Below are positions 4,482 through 35,557 of a stretch of 37,296 nt of DNA, piece after piece. The stretch is taken from positions 1 to 37,296 of the IMG/VR virus record IMGVR_UViG_3300032797_000272. The stretch is one strand, 5' to 3'. This stretch comes from a virus. A program made the translations under genes and the position numbers. Within the stretch, counting starts at the first letter, position 1. Every line of letters starts with the position of its first letter. A model generated the notes under the pieces. The model was given only the letters and a program-made list of their open reading frames with translations. It ran no database searches and was not told the DNA's origin.

Positions 4482-4556
4482 AGCTCTCAGCTTTCAGCTC
4501 TCAGCTCTCAGCTAAAACCGGCCTAGCTGAAAGCTGATAGCTGACGGCTGACAGCT
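4482..4556. repeat. Tandem agctctc/agctgat words forming an inverted pair
   Basis: Copies of agctctc/agctttc on the left and agctgaaagctgatagctgac on the right flank aaaaccggcc. The two halves are near-inverse complements and could form a long stem between the tape-measure stop and the next gene. It fills almost the whole spacer. Confidence 0.8.
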
Positions 4557-6561
4557 ATCCCGCGGTTGCCGGCTGCAACTGGCGCGTCTGAGTGGCCACC
4601 AACCGCACGTCCCGGTTCTGCACGGCATCGTTGATGATGTCGGTCAACTCCTCGATGCCGGAGGCGCCGATGATATGTCCGTTGACCACGATGGAAATTC
4701 GGGGGCCGGAAGAGGCTGGAGACTGGAGGCTGGAGGCTGGAGAAGCCGCCGAGCCTGCCGCGCCCCCAGCGGCCCCAGCACCGGCGCCGATGCCTCCGCC
4801 GCCGCCGCCCACGCTGGCCGCGGCCGCGGCGATGTTTTGTCCGGCGACAATGCCATACTGGGCGGCAGAAGCGAAATGGAGCGCGGCGGCCCAGTAATCG
4901 CCCCAAGCGGCGGCCGCCAGCCCGGCGGCGACCTCTTCGTGGATCTTCACGGCCGCCACCACGACCATGCCGGCGATCTGCGCGGCGGCGATCGCGGCGC
5001 AGTGTTTTCCCGCGCCGGCGGCGACCTGCTGCAGCACCATGCCCCAGGCCACGATGGTGTTGTTTACGAGCTGCTGGTGGTAAGCCAGCTCGTCCAGGTC
5101 CCGGATTTGCCCGCGGATCGAGGCCTGGCGGATGGCGTCGTTGTCGCGGATGGCCTGCTCTTCCTGCCGCAGCAAAAGGACGCGCGCATACTGCCCGCTA
5201 CGGGCGGCATTCACCACCTGCATTTCGAGGTGCTCGAGCTGCTTGGCGGCATCAAGAAACGCCTTGATTCTGCGGGCCTGCAATTTCTCAAACTCGGAAA
5301 CAGCGTGCTTTTCGGCGGCGATCATGCGCCCGAGCTGCTCGACGCGCATGTGCTCCGAGAGGGCCTGGTAGCGGGCCTGCTCCTCGAGTAGCCTGGCGTT
5401 GGTTTGCTTCTGGAGCTCCTGTAGTTTCAGGCCCACGCCGCGCTCGATTTCGAGCAGGACGTCGCCATAGACCGCCTCAGCAGCGGCGACGACTTTGGCG
5501 GCGTCGATGCGGCCCTGAGCGGCCTTGCGGGTTTCCTCGAGGTCCTTTTCGGCGGCGGCGCGCTTGCGGAGATACCATTCCTCGATGGCGCGCAGCGGCT
5601 TTTCTTCCTCGCCGAGCGCGGCCGTCTCGAGCCGCAAAGCGGCCAGCATCTCGCCCATGCGGTCGCGGACGGCCTCGCCGGCTTTTCTTTCGGCGGCAGC
5701 CAGATCGCCGGTGGATTTGGTCACCGCCGTGACCGCGGCGGCCCGCGCCATTTGCGCTTTTACCAGGGCATCCAGGGTAGTGAGCTGTTGGGCCGACAAA
5801 TCCGCGATTTTGTTCTCACCCGAGTACTGTTGTATGAGGGCAGCCACTAGCTGGCCTTTAAGCGCCACGCCGCCCGCGGCATGAGCCTGGAACACGGCCT
5901 CGACTTTGTTGCGCTCGCCGGCAGCGGCGATCTCGGCGTTGATCCCACTGAGCCGCTGCTGGACATCCTTCACGTAATCTTTTGAAATGCCCAGCAGCGC
6001 CTCGTTCAACTGCAATTGCAGGCGGAACTTCTCGATGTGGGCCTGGGCGGTATTGACGCCTTCGAGGCCCGCGAGTTTCTCCGCGAATTTCGCTTTCAGG
6101 ATCTCGACTTGGAGATCGCGAACCTTCTCGAGTTCCTTCGCGTTTTCCTCGAAGAGTTTTTTCTCCTCGGCTGACAACCTGCCGATCTCGCCGATGAATT
6201 TCGTCAAGTGCTCGATGCCGACGGCCAGCATCTGTATCAACCCGATAATGGCGATGGTGCTGAAGGCGGCGGCCATGGCCGGGCCGATGCCTTCCAGGCT
6301 GGCCAGCCAGGCGGAGACGTAGCGCGGCGCGGCCACGCCAACCTCAGCGCCCAACCCGCGCATGGCCATCTTTGCCTCGCCGATGCGGTATTCGGCCTTC
6401 TCGCTGGCCGCACCCAATCCGCCCATGCTCTGGATGCCGGCTGTTTGGACCTGCGCGAGCGAGCCGGAGATTTCTTTTTCAGCCAGGGCGACGGCGCTCA
6501 CCGCCCGCGATGGGTCGCTGGAAATCTCGAACAACAACCCCAAGGCGGAACTAGAGGCCAC
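4555..6561 (-). CDS. Tail tape-measure protein (668 aa)
   Basis: This is the largest tail gene. Its product sets tail length and occupies the tube lumen. Residues about 80-115 form a hydrophobic stretch (MAAAFSTIAIIGLIQML). Residues 130-470 are long Ala/Glu/Leu helices with coiled-coil character. Residues about 515-590 are Ala/Gly-rich and membrane-compatible. A Gly-rich linker (GGGGGGIGAGAGAAGG) and a short C-terminal domain follow. The start is a GTG at 6559-6561 with agggggtga a few bases upstream. It follows the chaperone gene in function but is separated from it by the plus-strand cassette (6562-7787). A tandem word near 4728-4742 is translated in frame as a C-terminal linker (SLQSPASS). 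Confidence 0.9.
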   Translation of the reverse strand: MASSSALGLLFEISSDPSRAVSAVALAEKEISGSLAQVQTAGIQSMGGLGAASEKAEYRIGEAKMAMRGLGAEVGVAAPRYVSAWLASLEGIGPAMAAAFSTIAIIGLIQMLAVGIEHLTKFIGEIGRLSAEEKKLFEENAKELEKVRDLQVEILKAKFAEKLAGLEGVNTAQAHIEKFRLQLQLNEALLGISKDYVKDVQQRLSGINAEIAAAGERNKVEAVFQAHAAGGVALKGQLVAALIQQYSGENKIADLSAQQLTTLDALVKAQMARAAAVTAVTKSTGDLAAAERKAGEAVRDRMGEMLAALRLETAALGEEEKPLRAIEEWYLRKRAAAEKDLEETRKAAQGRIDAAKVVAAAEAVYGDVLLEIERGVGLKLQELQKQTNARLLEEQARYQALSEHMRVEQLGRMIAAEKHAVSEFEKLQARRIKAFLDAAKQLEHLEMQVVNAARSGQYARVLLLRQEEQAIRDNDAIRQASIRGQIRDLDELAYHQQLVNNTIVAWGMVLQQVAAGAGKHCAAIAAAQIAGMVVVAAVKIHEEVAAGLAAAAWGDYWAAALHFASAAQYGIVAGQNIAAAAASVGGGGGGIGAGAGAAGGAAGSAASPASSLQSPASSGPRISIVVNGHIIGASGIEELTDIINDAVQNRDVRLVATQTRQLQPATAG

Positions 6562-6603
6562 GGGTCACCCCCTGGCGCCGGCCGGCGGAGGCAAAGATTG
6601 TGC

Positions 6604-6609
6604 TTGACA
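6604..6609 (+). promoter_or_regulatory. Candidate -35 box of the plus-strand cassette
   Basis: A perfect TTGACA lies about 100 bp upstream of the first cassette gene. At 17-bp spacing the -10 would be caggct (6627-6632), which is weak, so this is tentative. Short inverted words (gggct...agccc, 6611-6626) follow it. The region 6562-6707 holds no supported gene. Confidence 0.35.
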
Positions 6610-6707
6610 AGGGCTGGCGGGAAGCCCAGGCTTGGAGGGTAACGGGAGCCCGGCAGGGAGTGAACCCGCCAGGCCCCCTAACCATCATGGGTTTGGAGGA
6701 CCCACAA

Positions 6708-7007
6708 ATGGCTAATCGAAGTTGTAAATCAGCTTTGAAATCTCCGCAACCTGTTTTTCCGGTTTCGCCCTTCATCAGCCAGGCCGAGATTCTGGATGTG
6801 TTGCGCCTCCGGTCGCAATACGGATTGCTGAAGTTCGAACTGGAGACCGCAGAAAATTCCGTGCTCAAGAAACTGGAAGGGGGCGCCAGAATCGAGGCCG
6901 GGCCGTATGCATGCGGCGAAACCAACACGCACTTGGTGGTCTGGGAGGATGAGGATTTCCGCGGGGTCGAATGGCGCCGCGAGAAGAGAGAGGGGGTACT
7001 GGCATGA
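6708..7007 (+). CDS. Cassette protein 1, unknown function (99 aa)
   Basis: This gene is on the strand opposite to the surrounding tail operon. I chose ATG 6708 because ggagga (6694-6699) sits 8 bases upstream. An in-frame start at 6600 would overlap the candidate promoter and lacks such a site. The N-terminal 20 residues are basic and Pro-rich. Residues about 23-58 are predicted amphipathic helix (ISQAEILDVLRLRSQYGLLK). Then come an acidic/Gly turn (EGGARIEAGPYACG) and a short beta segment (THLVVWEDEDF). There is no signal peptide or TM. The stop overlaps the next start (ATGA), so the two proteins are probably made in fixed ratio and may be partners. I do not recognise the family. Confidence 0.8.
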   Translation: MANRSCKSALKSPQPVFPVSPFISQAEILDVLRLRSQYGLLKFELETAENSVLKKLEGGARIEAGPYACGETNTHLVVWEDEDFRGVEWRREKREGVLA

Positions 7008-7573
7008 AGCGCATCCAGGTGGCAATTCAAGGAGCGAGCAGTTTGTTGATGCACCGCTTTGGGGAGCAGGCGGAGGCCGATGTCGCACGCGGCACTAGCC
7101 ACGCGATCACTCGACCCACTGCGGCAGAGGCCGCCGAACAGGCGGCCTATCGGATGAAGACCGGGGACAATAAATTGGGCAACCTCTACGTGCCGACGCG
7201 GGCGCTTCTGGCCGCCATGCGGCAGGCGGCGGGTCTGCACCGCATTGGCCGGCGCGGGGCGCGAAGCATCGTTTGTGCCGCGGTGTTTATCGACGGCGAA
7301 GAGTTGGATTTGGGGACCAAGGACTACACGATCAACTCTCAGCCGGTGGTGATCCGGGCCACGAAGGGCCGCATATTGCGCCACAGGCCCCAGTTGCATT
7401 CCTGGAAACTCTCGTTCATGCTGAGTTACCGAGAAGATTTGATCCAGGATGAAGGTCTGCTTCGGCGGATTCTGGAGGACGCCGGCGCTCAGATCGGCCT
7501 GCTGGATTTCCGGCCGCAGTGCGGCGGTCCTCACGGAACTTTCGTGGTCAGCCGCTGGCAGCCGGTAAAATGA
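7004..7573 (+). CDS. Cassette protein 2, possible Cas7/RAMP-like nucleic-acid-binding protein (189 aa)
   Basis: It starts at ATG 7004 within ATGA, with agaggggg a few bases upstream, and ends directly before the pentamer array. Seen: beta strand 1 then IQGASSLLMHRF (residues 8-19); NLYVPTRALLAAMRQAAG (60-77); a basic stretch HRIGRRGAR (79-87); ILRHRPQLHSWKLSF (124-138); and a C-terminal GLLDFRPQCGGPHGTFVV (165-182). Known: Cas7-type RAMP proteins have a first beta strand ending in a small-residue turn, a 'YIPGSSLKGALR'-like helix start and a Gly-rich loop before the last strand. Inferred: the layout here is parallel to that, and the basic residues suit RNA or DNA binding. Not proven; it could be another ferredoxin-fold phage protein. 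Confidence 0.75.
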   Translation: MKRIQVAIQGASSLLMHRFGEQAEADVARGTSHAITRPTAAEAAEQAAYRMKTGDNKLGNLYVPTRALLAAMRQAAGLHRIGRRGARSIVCAAVFIDGEELDLGTKDYTINSQPVVIRATKGRILRHRPQLHSWKLSFMLSYREDLIQDEGLLRRILEDAGAQIGLLDFRPQCGGPHGTFVVSRWQPVK

Positions 7574-7577
7574 TTTC

Positions 7578-7737
7578 GGTAGGGCTTGGCGGGGCTTGGT
7601 CTGGTTTGGCGAGGCATGGTGGGGCGCGCTGAGGTCCGGCACGGCAAGGCGAGGCACGGTTTGGCCAGGTTTGGTTCGGTAGGGTCGGGCGGGGTCGGGT
7701 TGGCTCGGCCATGGCATGGCGAGGCAGGGCAGGGCGA
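7578..7737 (+). repeat. Array of 32 phased pentamers, G-[G/C]-Y-N-N
   Basis: The array starts 4 bases after the stop of cassette protein 2. All 32 consecutive 5-base units begin with G. Base 2 is G in 29 and C in 3 (units at 7628, 7703, 7708). Base 3 is a pyrimidine in all 32. Bases 4-5 vary, and 14 of the 16 dinucleotides occur (TA and GT are absent). No unit is lost or gained, so the 5-base phase holds for 160 bases. A 5-base period does not fit a codon-level repeat. The array lies between the cassette genes and their terminator, so it should be part of their transcript. Confidence 0.95.
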
Positions 7738-7778
7738 GCAGGGCGGCGACTAACATCATCGCCCTGCTCCTTCTTTTT
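7736..7778 (+). terminator. Intrinsic terminator of the plus-strand cassette
   Basis: A perfect 10-bp stem, gagcagggcg (7736-7745) with cgccctgctc (7760-7769), has a 14-base loop and is followed by cttcttttt (7770-7778). It works in the plus direction only. The first arm overlaps the last pentamer, so array and terminator are joined. Confidence 0.88.
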
Positions 7779-7787
7779 GTGCAGCCG

Positions 7788-7912
7788 CTACTGATTCCCA
7801 TCCTGCACCTTCGCTTGCGTCTCTAAGAGCCACTGGCCGTAAACTTCTGCGGCAGCGAGATCAAACTCCAGGGCCAGGAGTCCGTCAAGTTCCAAGAATG
7901 CGCTCGGGCGGC
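7788..7912 (-). other. Frameshift extension (T-type) of the tail assembly chaperone
   Basis: Past the short stop at 7885-7887, the +1 (equivalently -2) frame continues to TAG at 7788-7790. It encodes a coding-like acidic helix (FLELDGLLALEF, then DLAAAEVYGQWLLETQAKVQ). A plausible slip site is the CCC-G sequence near 7908-7912: a proline tRNA on CCC can re-pair with CCG in the +1 frame. A gtgggg run just upstream could support a -2 slip. Known: G/GT frameshifting is conserved in long-tailed phages, mostly -1, with +1 and -2 cases recorded. The exact slip site is inferred. Confidence 0.6.
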
Positions 7913-8307: not shown

Positions 8308-8334
8308 TGCCTGCTCCTCGGTAGAAGTGACAAG

Positions 8335-8394
8335 TGACAAGTGACAAGTGACGAGCGGGGCCTCTTGTCACTGGTCACTCGTCACTCGTCACTT
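8335..8394. repeat. Tandem gtgacaa words in inverted arrangement
   Basis: Three to four direct copies of aagtgac face copies of gtcact(c/t) across gagcggggcc, so transcripts could form a long imperfect hairpin. It fills the spacer between the tube-like gene stop (8389) and the chaperone start. Confidence 0.85.
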
Positions 8395-9947: not shown

Positions 9948-10032
9948 ACTGCAGGCTGCAGGCTGCAGGCTGCAGGGACACCCGAGTCGCCGGGTGGCTT
10001 TCCTGTAGCCTGTAGCCTGCAGCCTGCAGCCT
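9948..10032. repeat. Tandem gcaggct / gtagcct words with hairpin
   Basis: Four copies of ctgcagg on the left and copies of tgtagcc/cagcctg on the right flank cacccgagtcgccgggtgg, itself a small hairpin. The two sets of words are inverse complements. Confidence 0.85.
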
Positions 10033-18894: not shown

Positions 18895-21305
18895 TGCATT
18901 ACTCCTTCATCGGAAAAAATCGGCATCAACTGACCCCGGCAGGCGTCGCCGCCGTCGCAATCGTCGCCGGGCGACCAGTCCACCTCGGCCAGCGATTCCC
19001 ATTCCTGGCCGTCGCCGGCGGCGCAGGCTCCGCAGGTGTTCTGGTCCATGGCCTCGGCGCGGGCGTAGCGGGCGATCTCGCCCTGGAGCTCGCCGAAGGC
19101 GGCCCAGCGGCCGCCGGTCACCGCGGCGCGCGCGGCTTCAGTGGCGATGCGGTCGAGCCAGGAGTCGGCACCGCCGGTGAGGTCGGCGAGCACGCCGGCC
19201 TCCAGCGCCTGCCCCTCGAGGCCTTTTTTGTAGGCATCTACTGCGGCCGCGCGCGCGCGGGAGGTCAGGCCGTTATTCAGATCGCTGACCGATGCCTCGG
19301 CAATCAATGTGGGCTTGTCCTGCTCCGCCGATTCCGCAAGATTCACCGCAGAGGACGCGGAGGAACGCAGAGGTTCTTGGTTTGTTTTCTCCTCTGTGTT
19401 CCTCTGCGCCCTCTGTGGTGTCACTTTTTTGCGTTCATCGTAGACGGCCTGGCGGCCATAGGCGTGGGCCACGGCCAGTGAGCGCGCCAGGCGCGAAACC
19501 ATGGCATGGGGGAACGGCAGCTCGAGTTTATCGAGCGTGGCCGGATCGTACTTGGCGACCCGCGCGGCGGCCTCACGGACCAGGGCGGGCTTGGCGGCGC
19601 GCAGGATTCGGGCGATGACCGCCGCGGTTTTATCGCTGCGGTCGGCGTGCCCATCCCAATCGTGCTTCAGCTCATGGGGCTTGAGCGCGCGCGTCAATGG
19701 CCGTCCCCCGGCCGTCGCATGTTCGGACAGCGCCGCCGGCCTGGGAACCGCTCCCTGCGTCCGCCGCGGCGGACTCTGGTCGCGGCTCTGTTGCTGCTTT
19801 CCGCCTTCGGTCTTCGGCGCAATCTGCGCAATCTGTGGCTTCGGCCCACCCTCTTCCACGGTCTGCGGATTCGCGCCTTCCTCCGTCACGCGCTGGGCGA
19901 CCGGCGCGTAGCGGATCCGCGCTTGGCCTTCTTTGAGCAATGGCATCCCAAGTTTCTTCGCGGCCCAGTTGTCGCGTTCAAGGCTTGGCTCGATCAGATC
20001 CACGTTCGCGGCCGCCACATCTTTGATCACAGCGAGCAGATCGAGGACATTCAGCACAGCAATGTGCGGGATGATCAGCTTGGGATAGGGCAGCGGTTTT
20101 CCGGGCGCGCGCGGAAAATTGAAATCCACCAGGCGCCGGATGGTGGTGCCGCTGATGGTGTCGCAGACCGAGCTGGCCAGGCCCTGCAGTGACATCTGGA
20201 AGAAATCCACCATCACGTTGCCCACCGCGCGCGAGCCGGTCTGCGTAGTGCCCAGCGTGGCGAACATGGCCAGACCGGAGCGCATGATCTGCTCCGAGCA
20301 ATGCTGGATGAACGGCAGGGGGTCGTAGATGCGGCCGTTGATGCCCTGGAAAACCATCTCCCAGCCGTTGGGCAGGGCCAGGCCGGTATTCTCGTGCGCG
20401 GCCAGGTTGGCCACCCATTGTTTGGCCGAGTCCATGTCCTCCTTCGAGGGGTTGAGCGCGGCGGTGATCTTCGGGACGCCCATGGCGTTGCGCTCGGCGG
20501 CGATCGAGGTAATGCGGTAAAGGGCCTGCTTGATGTACCAGGGCTGATAGGCGAAGCGCAGGGTCGAGATGCCGTAAAAGTTTGCGCCTTCCTGGTGCAG
20601 GGAAAACAGGGTGAACTTGTCGGCGGGGACCTTGACGTTTACGAATTGCTGGCCGCGGTAGCCCCACTGCTCGATGGACTGGAGGGTCTCGCCGTCCGGC
20701 TCGACGTGGAAGCGATAGAAGGTGAGGGGAAGCCGCGGGGCCAGGCGGCGCAGGCGCACGCGGTCGCCGTCGATGGTCCACAAGTCCTCGTGGCCGGCGC
20801 ATCCGAAATCGCAGCATAGCAGCGCGTTCTCGATCACCGACTCCCAGCGCTGGGTGAACTTCATGCCCAGGGAGTTCTCGTATTCGAGGCCGCCGAAAAG
20901 GTTTTCCTTGACGAACTTCGCTTCCTCTTTGGCCTGGTCGTAGTCCGGCTCATTTTCTTTCACGCCGGGGATGACGTCGCAGTCCGCCGAGCGGATGGGC
21001 AGCTTCTGGCACCACAGCAGGGCGGCCACATCGGCGTCGGAGCGCCGCATTTTTTCGTAGGTCATGAAAGCGTTGCGGCCGCGAAGCGTGGCGTTGTATT
21101 CCTGGAGGTCGGTGACGAAGCCGGAGACGATAGGCGTGCCCGTCGCCCCATAGCTCGACGTGTCCGGACTTTGGACTTTGGACTTTGGACTTTGGACCTC
21201 GGTCTCGGGCACGGGCGCGGATCCGGCGGGGGAAAGCAGCGGCGCCGGCGAGACGCCCGTCTCGCCCAGGCCCACCATCCTCCGGATTGTGTCCACGACG
21301 TTCAT
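18891..21305 (-). CDS. Fused portal (Mu gp29, DUF935) and head-morphogenesis (Mu gp30/F) protein (804 aa)
   Basis: The start is ATG 21305. Residues about 55-500 are portal-like: SGFVTDLQEYNATLRGRNAF, then VENEPDYDQAKEE-type helices, PRLPLTFYRFHVEPDGETL, DKFTLFSLHQEGANFYGIST and RAVGNVMVDFFQMSLQGLAS. A Pro/Gln-rich linker (about 500-570) holds translated tandem words. Residues about 570-804 are an F-like head-morphogenesis domain, ending with CGACAAGDGQEW (Cys pattern of this family) and DDCDGGDACRGQ. In Mu these are two genes; here no stop separates them. The portal forms the packaging vertex and F helps DNA injection or assembly. Confidence 0.85.
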   Translation of the reverse strand: MNVVDTIRRMVGLGETGVSPAPLLSPAGSAPVPETEVQSPKSKVQSPDTSSYGATGTPIVSGFVTDLQEYNATLRGRNAFMTYEKMRRSDADVAALLWCQKLPIRSADCDVIPGVKENEPDYDQAKEEAKFVKENLFGGLEYENSLGMKFTQRWESVIENALLCCDFGCAGHEDLWTIDGDRVRLRRLAPRLPLTFYRFHVEPDGETLQSIEQWGYRGQQFVNVKVPADKFTLFSLHQEGANFYGISTLRFAYQPWYIKQALYRITSIAAERNAMGVPKITAALNPSKEDMDSAKQWVANLAAHENTGLALPNGWEMVFQGINGRIYDPLPFIQHCSEQIMRSGLAMFATLGTTQTGSRAVGNVMVDFFQMSLQGLASSVCDTISGTTIRRLVDFNFPRAPGKPLPYPKLIIPHIAVLNVLDLLAVIKDVAAANVDLIEPSLERDNWAAKKLGMPLLKEGQARIRYAPVAQRVTEEGANPQTVEEGGPKPQIAQIAPKTEGGKQQQSRDQSPPRRTQGAVPRPAALSEHATAGGRPLTRALKPHELKHDWDGHADRSDKTAAVIARILRAAKPALVREAAARVAKYDPATLDKLELPFPHAMVSRLARSLAVAHAYGRQAVYDERKKVTPQRAQRNTEEKTNQEPLRSSASSAVNLAESAEQDKPTLIAEASVSDLNNGLTSRARAAAVDAYKKGLEGQALEAGVLADLTGGADSWLDRIATEAARAAVTGGRWAAFGELQGEIARYARAEAMDQNTCGACAAGDGQEWESLAEVDWSPGDDCDGGDACRGQLMPIFSDEGVMQ

Positions 21306-23921: not shown

Positions 23922-24421
23922 GCGTTCTCTCCTCGCGCTCCGGTTGCGCCGGTCGCCCCGGTTGCGCCGGTTTCGCCGGTTGCGCCGGTTTCGCCGGTTG
24001 CGCCGGTCTCGCCCCGAGCTCCGGACGGTCCCATGGGCCCGATCAATCGGACGTCGCCGTGCATCGCTTCGATTTTTCCGCTCAGCCGCTCGATCTGCCC
24101 GGATAGCGCGCGGCAGGCGGCTCGAACGTCATCCTCGCTCGTAAATCGCTCCGAAATCACTGCCGCTAATTTGCCTTGCGAGCTAGCCATGTCGCGGATG
24201 GCGCCGATGGCCGGGCCGGCGTGGCGGTCGAGCAAAAACCCGCCCAGCCCAATCACCAGAAGCGCCGGGCCCCAGTTGGTTATTTGCGCCACCACCTGCG
24301 GCGATCCTTGCAGCAGCGCCATCACCGCCGCGCCGATACCGATGCCGGCGGCGCCGGCGCCCACCGCCTTGGTCGCCGCCGCGGTCTTGCCGTTCTCCGG
24401 TTTCGCTGTTGCATCAGCCAT
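23918..24421 (-). CDS. Membrane protein with coiled coil and collagen-like tail (167 aa)
   Basis: The N-terminal half has two hydrophobic stretches: about residues 20-42 (GAGAAGIGIGAAVMALL) and 50-65 (WGPALLVIGLGGFLL). A helical region (EDDVRAACRALSGQIERLSG) follows, then a Gly-x-y tail from about residue 126: GPMGPSGARGETGATGET, with repeated GAT/GET triplets and an Arg. The collagen-like tail would trimerise; at DNA level it is the ccggttgcgccggtttcg repeat around 23941-24020. A role in lysis, adsorption or anchoring is possible. No family is recognised. Confidence 0.7.
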   Translation of the reverse strand: MADATAKPENGKTAAATKAVGAGAAGIGIGAAVMALLQGSPQVVAQITNWGPALLVIGLGGFLLDRHAGPAIGAIRDMASSQGKLAAVISERFTSEDDVRAACRALSGQIERLSGKIEAMHGDVRLIGPMGPSGARGETGATGETGATGETGATGATGATGARGENA

Positions 24422-33274: not shown

Positions 33275-35557
33275 CTACCCCTGGAAAAACCGAAACTCCC
33301 CGTCATCCTCATCGGCACCGAGAGCCGGCGGTGGAATCGCCAGTTCCACCGCCGGCCCGGTGTTCTCCGACGTGAGCGCGATTGAGGACGCGCGGGAGAA
33401 ACTGAAATTCGCATCCGCGGCCGCCGCCGCCTGCTGGATCGCCTCCGGAAGTTGCATTCCGCCTTCCGCCTTCCGCCTTCCGCCTTCCGGCAATGCCGCC
33501 CGCGCCGCCTCCCGCCGCCGCGCTCGCTCCTCGACCGGGGCTACTTCCCCGGTCTGAATCGCGGCGATGAAATCCCTGATGGTTTTCAGCGCCGAGCGCC
33601 GATCGCGCTCATCCTGCACGAACGATTCCTCGCCCATCCGCGAAAGCTCGACTGAGTCGCAGAGGCCGAGAAACCGGCCTTCGGCGTAGATCGCGCCGGT
33701 GCCGAGATCGTGCTCGTCATAGGCGAATTCCACCTGGCGGTCGTTGTAGAGCATCAAGCTCTGGCTGTCGCCGCGGAATCGGTAGTGATATTGCCGGCCG
33801 GCGAACATGGGCCGAATCTCGCCCTGGCGCACGGTGAGCAGGCGGCGCCGGTGGAAGGCGAATTGGAGTACGGCGGGATCCGCGCTGCGCCGATCGATGC
33901 CCTGGACGAGTTGCACCCAGCATTCATCGGGACTGAGCCAGGCCCGGCCCTGTGGCACGGCTTTCTCCATTCCGCGGCCTTCCAGCGGGCGCTGGTTCAG
34001 CGTGGTCAGCGCCTCGTCGTAGAGCCAGGCGGCGTACTCGATGGTGAATGGTGCACCGCGATCATCAATGAATGCCGGGTGTTCCCGCTTGCCCTTCATC
34101 CATAGTTCGTGCTCGTGGACCATGCGCGTGAATCGCTCCGGGCGGGCCTGGGGCTTGTGCCCGCACCACCAGGGCAGGGTGCGGTCGAAATTCGAGAGGC
34201 GCAGGAAATTCGGCTCGATGATCTTGCTGTGCGGCCGGAACGGCAGGGCGTGCTTTACGCGCGCGCCGAGTGAATCCATCACACCGCGCATGGCCAGGGG
34301 CAGGCCATCGATTTTTGATCCGCGAGAATCAGCGGAATCCGCGGATTGATTTCCCTCCAGGTATTCGCATCTGAAGTCCTTGCCGTTATCCCAGTAGAAC
34401 GTCGTCACACAGCGGCCGTCGCGGTAGAGCAGGCCGTGATCGAGGATGGCGCGCTTGATGCAGGCGGCGATGCTGTCGCTCGATGGCACCAGGCAGACGA
34501 TCCAGGCCAGCCATCGCCGGGTCCGCATGTCGATGGCCGCCGTCAGCCAGGGCCGGAGCAGGCGCCAGGGTTTCGCCGGATCGCGGGTCATGCAGAAAAA
34601 ATCCGCCAGGCGATGGTCCATCACGATGTATTCCAGGGGATCGAGCGCGGCCAGGTCCCGCTGGGTGACCAGGGCCTGGCGGTTGAAATAATCCTGGTCG
34701 CCGCGCGCCGCCACATCCTTTATTACTGCCGGGATTTTGGCGGCCCACAGGCGGAATGTCTCGTAGGAAGCCTGGGGCAGCGGCTCGGCGGAATCGGGGT
34801 GACCGGCGCGCCAGGCCCGTTCTTCCTCGTAGCAGCGGTAGACCTCGCGGACGGTCATTTCGCCGCGGCCGGGTTTGCCGTTGCGAGGATCCGCCGGCGC
34901 CGGCAGCAATGCCGCGGCGATATAGTGCTGCGCCGCCGGCGTGAGCACTCGAGCGCGGCCTTTATCGTTGCGATCGCGGTTGGCCAGGCCGGCCAGGTTT
35001 CGCTCCTGCCACTGTTGGATCCAGCGGTACAGCGTGCGCGCCGGGGTCTTGTGCTGGGCGGCCAGGAAGGCGACCAGCGCACCTTTTCCGGCGAACTGCC
35101 GCCATAGCGCCTGATGCCGCTCGGGGGCCACTAGCGGCTCGATGATGGCGTAGCGACGGTCGGCGACGGCGCGGTCCTCCGGGCTGAGCGAGCTGGCCAG
35201 AGGCGCCGGCAGCGCCAGCGGGAGCTGGTCCGACAGAGCCGCGACCGGAGCGCGATGCGTAGTCTGCTCCGCGCGGGAGGGAGCGGTTCCCTCTCCCAGC
35301 AGCCGCCGTACCTCATCCTCGCCCACCAGCACCTCGCGCATGATCGTGGGGTTGCCTCCATCGAGCTTGCCCCAACCATGCGTCGCCAGCCATTTCTGGC
35401 GCGGTTTCTCGGGCAGTGTGGAGAGTTGGTACATCGGCTGCGCGCGCCCGTTGCGGCCCTTCGCACCGGGGACGGATTTGAGGCGCTTCTCGATCCACCG
35501 CATCGACCAGCCGGTGACCCGGGCCACTTCATCCTTCGTCAGCAGTTTCTCTCTCAT
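33275..35557 (-). CDS. MuA-like DDE transposase (760 aa)
   Basis: The N-terminal winged HTH is residues 1-50 (TKDEVARVTGWSMRWIEKRL), then a second HTH (HKTPARTLYRWIQQWQERNL, 169-188). Catalytic RNase-H-like core: Asp 314 (IVMDHRLADF), Asp 390 (FYWDNGKDF) and Glu 448 (HSKIIEPNF), in the order of MuA D-D-E. The C-terminal beta barrel/helical part is about 560-700. Two repeat-word insertions are in frame: NQSADSADSRG (about 403-413) and a C-terminal EGGRRKAEGG. Reaction: nicking and joining of phage ends to target DNA, for integration and replication. Its start overlaps the CII-like stop by 4 bases. Confidence 0.93.
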   Translation of the reverse strand: MREKLLTKDEVARVTGWSMRWIEKRLKSVPGAKGRNGRAQPMYQLSTLPEKPRQKWLATHGWGKLDGGNPTIMREVLVGEDEVRRLLGEGTAPSRAEQTTHRAPVAALSDQLPLALPAPLASSLSPEDRAVADRRYAIIEPLVAPERHQALWRQFAGKGALVAFLAAQHKTPARTLYRWIQQWQERNLAGLANRDRNDKGRARVLTPAAQHYIAAALLPAPADPRNGKPGRGEMTVREVYRCYEEERAWRAGHPDSAEPLPQASYETFRLWAAKIPAVIKDVAARGDQDYFNRQALVTQRDLAALDPLEYIVMDHRLADFFCMTRDPAKPWRLLRPWLTAAIDMRTRRWLAWIVCLVPSSDSIAACIKRAILDHGLLYRDGRCVTTFYWDNGKDFRCEYLEGNQSADSADSRGSKIDGLPLAMRGVMDSLGARVKHALPFRPHSKIIEPNFLRLSNFDRTLPWWCGHKPQARPERFTRMVHEHELWMKGKREHPAFIDDRGAPFTIEYAAWLYDEALTTLNQRPLEGRGMEKAVPQGRAWLSPDECWVQLVQGIDRRSADPAVLQFAFHRRRLLTVRQGEIRPMFAGRQYHYRFRGDSQSLMLYNDRQVEFAYDEHDLGTGAIYAEGRFLGLCDSVELSRMGEESFVQDERDRRSALKTIRDFIAAIQTGEVAPVEERARRREAARAALPEGGRRKAEGGMQLPEAIQQAAAAADANFSFSRASSIALTSENTGPAVELAIPPPALGADEDDGEFRFFQG

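Follow-up and report, generated by a model that had tools for sequence, protein, structure and literature searches.

VIPR (Viral Interference Programmable Repeat) is a CRISPR-related system with which phages act against other phages (PMC13142463, a 2026 preprint). In our literature search, this was the one paper describing such a system. The described systems, from Escherichia phage SUSP1 and a Pseudomonas fulva prophage, combine a RAMP-like protein, Vipr, with vrRNAs of 9-16 GGY/NN units, and staggered overlapping arrays are mentioned (PMC13142463). DNA is recognized through the NN dinucleotides with one target base skipped, mostly the wobble base; altered NN pairing abolishes silencing, and the targets are rival mobile elements, sometimes other VIPR systems (PMC13142463).

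Here we describe a GGYNN array and an adjacent gene in the window, i.e. the whole 37,296-bp stretch of DNA that was analyzed, which very probably form a VIPR locus of a Mu-like phage with a guide that would repress the vipr genes of rivals. The contig encodes a transposase and a transposition protein of a Mu-like transposable phage, together with a Mu-type portal and terminase, a Mu-like protease and a major head protein. These phage genes lie on the minus strand and the array and the two ORFs preceding it on the plus strand, between ORF 4555-6561, a putative tape measure gene judging from its length and position, and the next minus-strand genes. As part of the preferred explanation, the VIPR locus would be a reverse-oriented cassette amid the tail genes of this phage. 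Its features are:

6708..7007, plus strand, ORF of 99 aa, overlaps the start codon of vipr (ATGA), candidate accessory gene
7004..7573, plus strand, vipr, 189 aa, RAMP/Cas7-like protein (phrog_4652; PDB 36pp; predicted Csm3 fold)
7578..7737, plus strand, GGYNN (vrRNA) array of 32 units, same strand as vipr
7578..7642, plus strand, units 1-13, possible second guide
7643..7717, plus strand, units 14-28, putative guide segment with a 1-nt-skip match to vipr of other phages (antisense strand)
7718..7737, plus strand, units 29-32 (NN = GA AG AG GA), probable start of the 3' tail, beyond the point where the match stops (unit 28) and in line with the purine-rich array ends of the family
7736..7778, plus strand, hairpin (arms 7736-7746 and 7759-7769, then CTTCTTTTT; fold z-score -2.76)

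The ORF at 6708-7007, for which our searches found no recognized relative, may be an accessory gene. The hairpin and the T-run behind it would make a terminator-like transcript end; a consensus terminator scan did not flag it, and a promoter scan detected no promoter. Minus-strand coding was considered and rejected: the 416-aa ORF at 6551-7801 has no family match and runs antisense to vipr.

The array comprises 32 contiguous, in-phase pentamers with no indel, 29 of them GGYNN and three GCYNN. The first position is G in all 32 units, the second is C in units 11, 26, and 27 and G in the other 29, the third is C in 18 units and T in 14, and the last two take 14 of the 16 possible dinucleotides. 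The array starts 4 bp past the stop codon of the plus-strand gene at 7004-7573, and the pentamer phase is absent immediately 5' of 7578 and 3' of 7737. No second run of 8 GGYNN was found on either strand of the 37,296-bp record, the reversed pattern gave 0 matches in the same record, and searches of Rfam and, at the nucleotide level, of phages returned no match.

Other repeats occur in the window. It contains many short arrays of heptamers, spread over its whole length and each built from its own unit (21-33 bp, about 3-5 copies), e.g. at 8325-8352 with 8367-8393, at 9949-9976 with 10002-10032, at 21166-21197, and at 33457-33489. Several form adjacent pairs resembling inverted copies, and many are seemingly intergenic. 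Perfect period-7 runs of at least 21 bp number 13 in the window; 20 shuffles contained 0, and other periods gave 0-3. A separate tandem repeat at 23936-24024 has a 9-base unit, CCGGTTGCG, in about 7.6 copies.

The product of the gene at 7004-7573 is assigned to phrog_4652, as are 68/68 aligned members of its family; it is 20-47% identical to the relatives that we aligned. A profile of the 68 relatives has a full-length match to PDB 36pp ('SUSP1 Vipr protein') with an E value of 3e-26, and the single sequence matches the same entry with an E value of 6e-5. The AF2 model (pLDDT 94) has a RAMP fold, and its structural matches are Csm3 and other Cas7-type chains, with Z up to 12.7. Judged by profile and predicted fold, the gene encodes Vipr, a member of the VIPR RAMP family.

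Array and gene are associated in searches from both sides. An IMG/VR scan for ten consecutive GGYNN units retrieved at least 120 stretches; in the arrays among the matches listed, GGY is constant and NN differs, and a vipr homolog is present at 85 of the 120 loci listed. In the converse search, 107 loci were chosen from viral and genome collections by Vipr protein similarity only, and 82 of them contain an array with 9 or more units. Genome contigs yielded no relatives in a single-sequence search with the window Vipr and 28 loci when searched with the Vipr alignment. Across related loci, the array shares the strand of vipr in 498 of 499 cases, and terminal units are purine-rich throughout the family. 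The flanks of the vipr genes chosen by protein similarity, compared without reference to any motif, are more self-similar at lags 5, 10, and 15 (0.35-0.36) than at other lags (0.24-0.29). The preliminary description had proposed that related arrays with mutations equally in all five positions, or with frequent loss of phase, would speak against a kept 5-nt phase; the relatives instead hold GGY in phase with period 5, as does the window array over its 32 units, and this favors the original proposal.

Some relatives carry very long GGYNN runs: up to 96 units in uninterrupted phase in L023 (6311-7010), 78-79 units in L183 (from 8646) and L202 (from 3827), and very long runs also in L057 and L109. 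All of these far exceed the published 9-16 units per vrRNA.

We then read the NN dinucleotides as a guide with one target base skipped between units. In a first skip-1 scan of the initial locus set, the window array stood out, with its match at a vipr gene. A larger scan covered 545 arrays and 228 sequences (2.35 Mb), a set enriched for vipr genes related to the window vipr; its top skip-1 match was again that of the window array, whose units 13-28 matched vipr genes on the antisense strand, with skip 0, skip 2, and shuffled guides at background scores. Units 14-28 agree with the vipr genes of L151 and L211 at 27/30 positions and with those of L171 and L132 at 26/30, and units 22-27 are perfect in all 6 vipr genes compared. 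The match ends sharply after unit 28, and units 29-32 and 1-12 score near background against vipr genes. As controls, skips of 0, 2, and 3 reached 19, 20, and 18 of 30 against 192 vipr genes, and 1000 shuffles of unit order reached a maximum of 23/30 against the same genes.

The skipped base falls on the third codon (wobble) position of vipr, and the decoded peptide, I-I-R-H-R-P-R-L-D/E-N/K-W-N/K-V-S-F/L, is a conserved Vipr motif. The NN-based match with its one-base skip on the wobble position fits the VIPR code. An exact IMG/VR scan with units 19-28 matched nothing; with the pattern relaxed at unit 19 (units 18 and 20-28, a 20-base gapped pattern), exactly two exact matches were found in all of IMG/VR, both at the decoded vipr site and on the contigs of L151 and L171. 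No perfect target for the guide was found in the decoding scans and exact IMG/VR scans, and the guide of the window array was not found in other phages. In the parts compared, the contigs of the matched vipr genes have no structural proteins in common with the window.

These results suggest how the array is organized. The sharp stop after unit 28, together with the weaker match of the phage's own vipr (22/30), points to one guide of ordinary, published size in units 14-28, directed against rival vipr; the 15 matching units sit within the uninterrupted run of 32. On the 3' side of this single array, the purine-rich final units are followed by the hairpin, and units 29-32 are probably the start of a constant 3' tail. 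Units 1-13 could hold another guide, perhaps one that overlaps the first as in the published staggered arrays. Exact IMG/VR scans with units 1-10, 3-11, and 5-13 found no match, and a search with units 1-10 that allowed up to 3 mismatches was equally negative in 15 genomes or records with related viprs.

Based on what is published for SUSP1, from which we take expression, complex formation, DNA binding, and repression, the array would be transcribed on the vipr strand up to the hairpin with its T-run, and its RNA would be coated by the Cas7/Csm3-like Vipr with a 5-nt step. GGY, presumably fixed for the sake of the protein, would be gripped by Vipr, and each NN offered to double-stranded DNA for pairing, with one base of the target passed over from one dinucleotide to the next. 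Of the two readings of the 5-nt period that had been offered at the outset, a footprint on single-stranded RNA is the one that fits; half a turn of duplex DNA found no support. Units 14-28 would pair with vipr genes of other phages in a conserved region and, since the skip is on the wobble base, synonymous third-position changes would offer no escape. The bound rival vipr would be repressed, and the rival's VIPR system thereby disabled. Because part of the array spells other phages' vipr, it looks like a weapon against the rivals' weapons, and, as far as sequence can tell, like a clear example of a VIPR system directed against the vipr of others.

More tentatively, and with less than even confidence, we consider that the array holds two overlapping guides, that the one on the 3' side acts broadly against VIPR systems, and that the vipr of the phage itself has diverged at the target site. 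By reading the first two bases of each codon in a near-universal Vipr motif and skipping the wobble base, such a guide would recognize many rival viprs. If true, hitting the most conserved part of a rival's effector would be a general strategy among VIPR phages.

The target could also be the phage itself: the guide would repress its own (or an ancestral) vipr, and the match to other phages would be a by-product of the conserved motif. The 22/30 match of the own vipr is above background, as this self-regulation would predict. However, its 8 mismatches are scattered along the guide, other vipr genes contain at least 14 sites that reach 24/30 or better, and changes in NN pairing abolish silencing in the published system (PMC13142463), all of which makes self-regulation improbable. 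The own vipr uses TTG in 8/19 leucine codons, versus 12% TTA/TTG elsewhere; this excess is not confined to the target site and is therefore not taken as evidence of escape.

It is less probable still that the array is a passive protein scaffold, similar to the RNA bound by TRAP, in which only GGY is read and NN is neutral filler. GGY is indeed fixed and NN hypervariable across the family, but the partner is a RAMP protein and the order of the dinucleotides matches vipr only at skip 1, the match being lost on shuffling. The preliminary description had posed informative dinucleotides and the reading of GGY alone as alternatives, and had taken fast NN change as a sign of a scaffold. The first idea was borne out, but the opposition was not, as both are true in VIPR arrays: the hypervariability of NN comes from its role as the guide, and therefore rapid change in NN does not imply that it is meaningless. 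A functionless microsatellite, decayed or expanding, as which a few of the IMG/VR pattern matches listed do qualify (L104, L111, L118, and L119), can practically be dismissed here, in agreement with the initial view, given variation limited to fixed positions, 14 dinucleotides without indels, near-absolute strand linkage to vipr, and a decodable target.

A natural target was thus recovered for the guide without having been preselected, which gives the published noncontiguous code independent, computational support in a divergent phage. Decoding raw GGYNN arrays makes it possible to predict competing phages, and a long unbroken array can hold a guide of ordinary size.

TRAP binds leader RNAs with about 11 (G/U)AG triplets separated by spacers of 2-3 nt. 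The window array shares with them triplets separated by about two free nucleotides; unlike them, its triplet is GGY in 29/32 units and GCY in 3 rather than GAG or UAG, its partner is a RAMP, and its spacer nucleotides are informative. A TRAP-like scaffold was our initial idea and was dropped on finding the adjacent RAMP gene.

Class 1 CRISPR effectors form a protein filament on the guide RNA, with pairing periodically interrupted. VIPR resembles them in both respects, and the window Vipr has the RAMP fold of Cas7 and of Csm3 from the type III-A Csm complex. In contrast to Class 1 systems, the locus has a pentamer run instead of an array of constant repeats and unique spacers, and one small RAMP with a 5-nt step and two informative bases.

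The closest relatives are the SUSP1 and P. fulva systems, with which the locus shares a homologous, phage-encoded Vipr RAMP, a GGY/NN array encoded on the same strand as vipr, a decoding that skips 1 nt of the target at the wobble position, and a putative target in a gene of a competing phage, vipr being among the targets that the preprint mentions. It differs in lacking a recognized vap gene, in being carried by a Mu-like transposable phage, in the divergence of its Vipr from the aligned relatives, and in having a single unbroken 32-unit run instead of separate 9-16-unit vrRNAs with their own tails; since the preprint mentions staggered overlapping arrays, this last difference may not be a true one. 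VIPR is already published, and the window locus adds another member, with a guide apparently directed against other phages' vipr.
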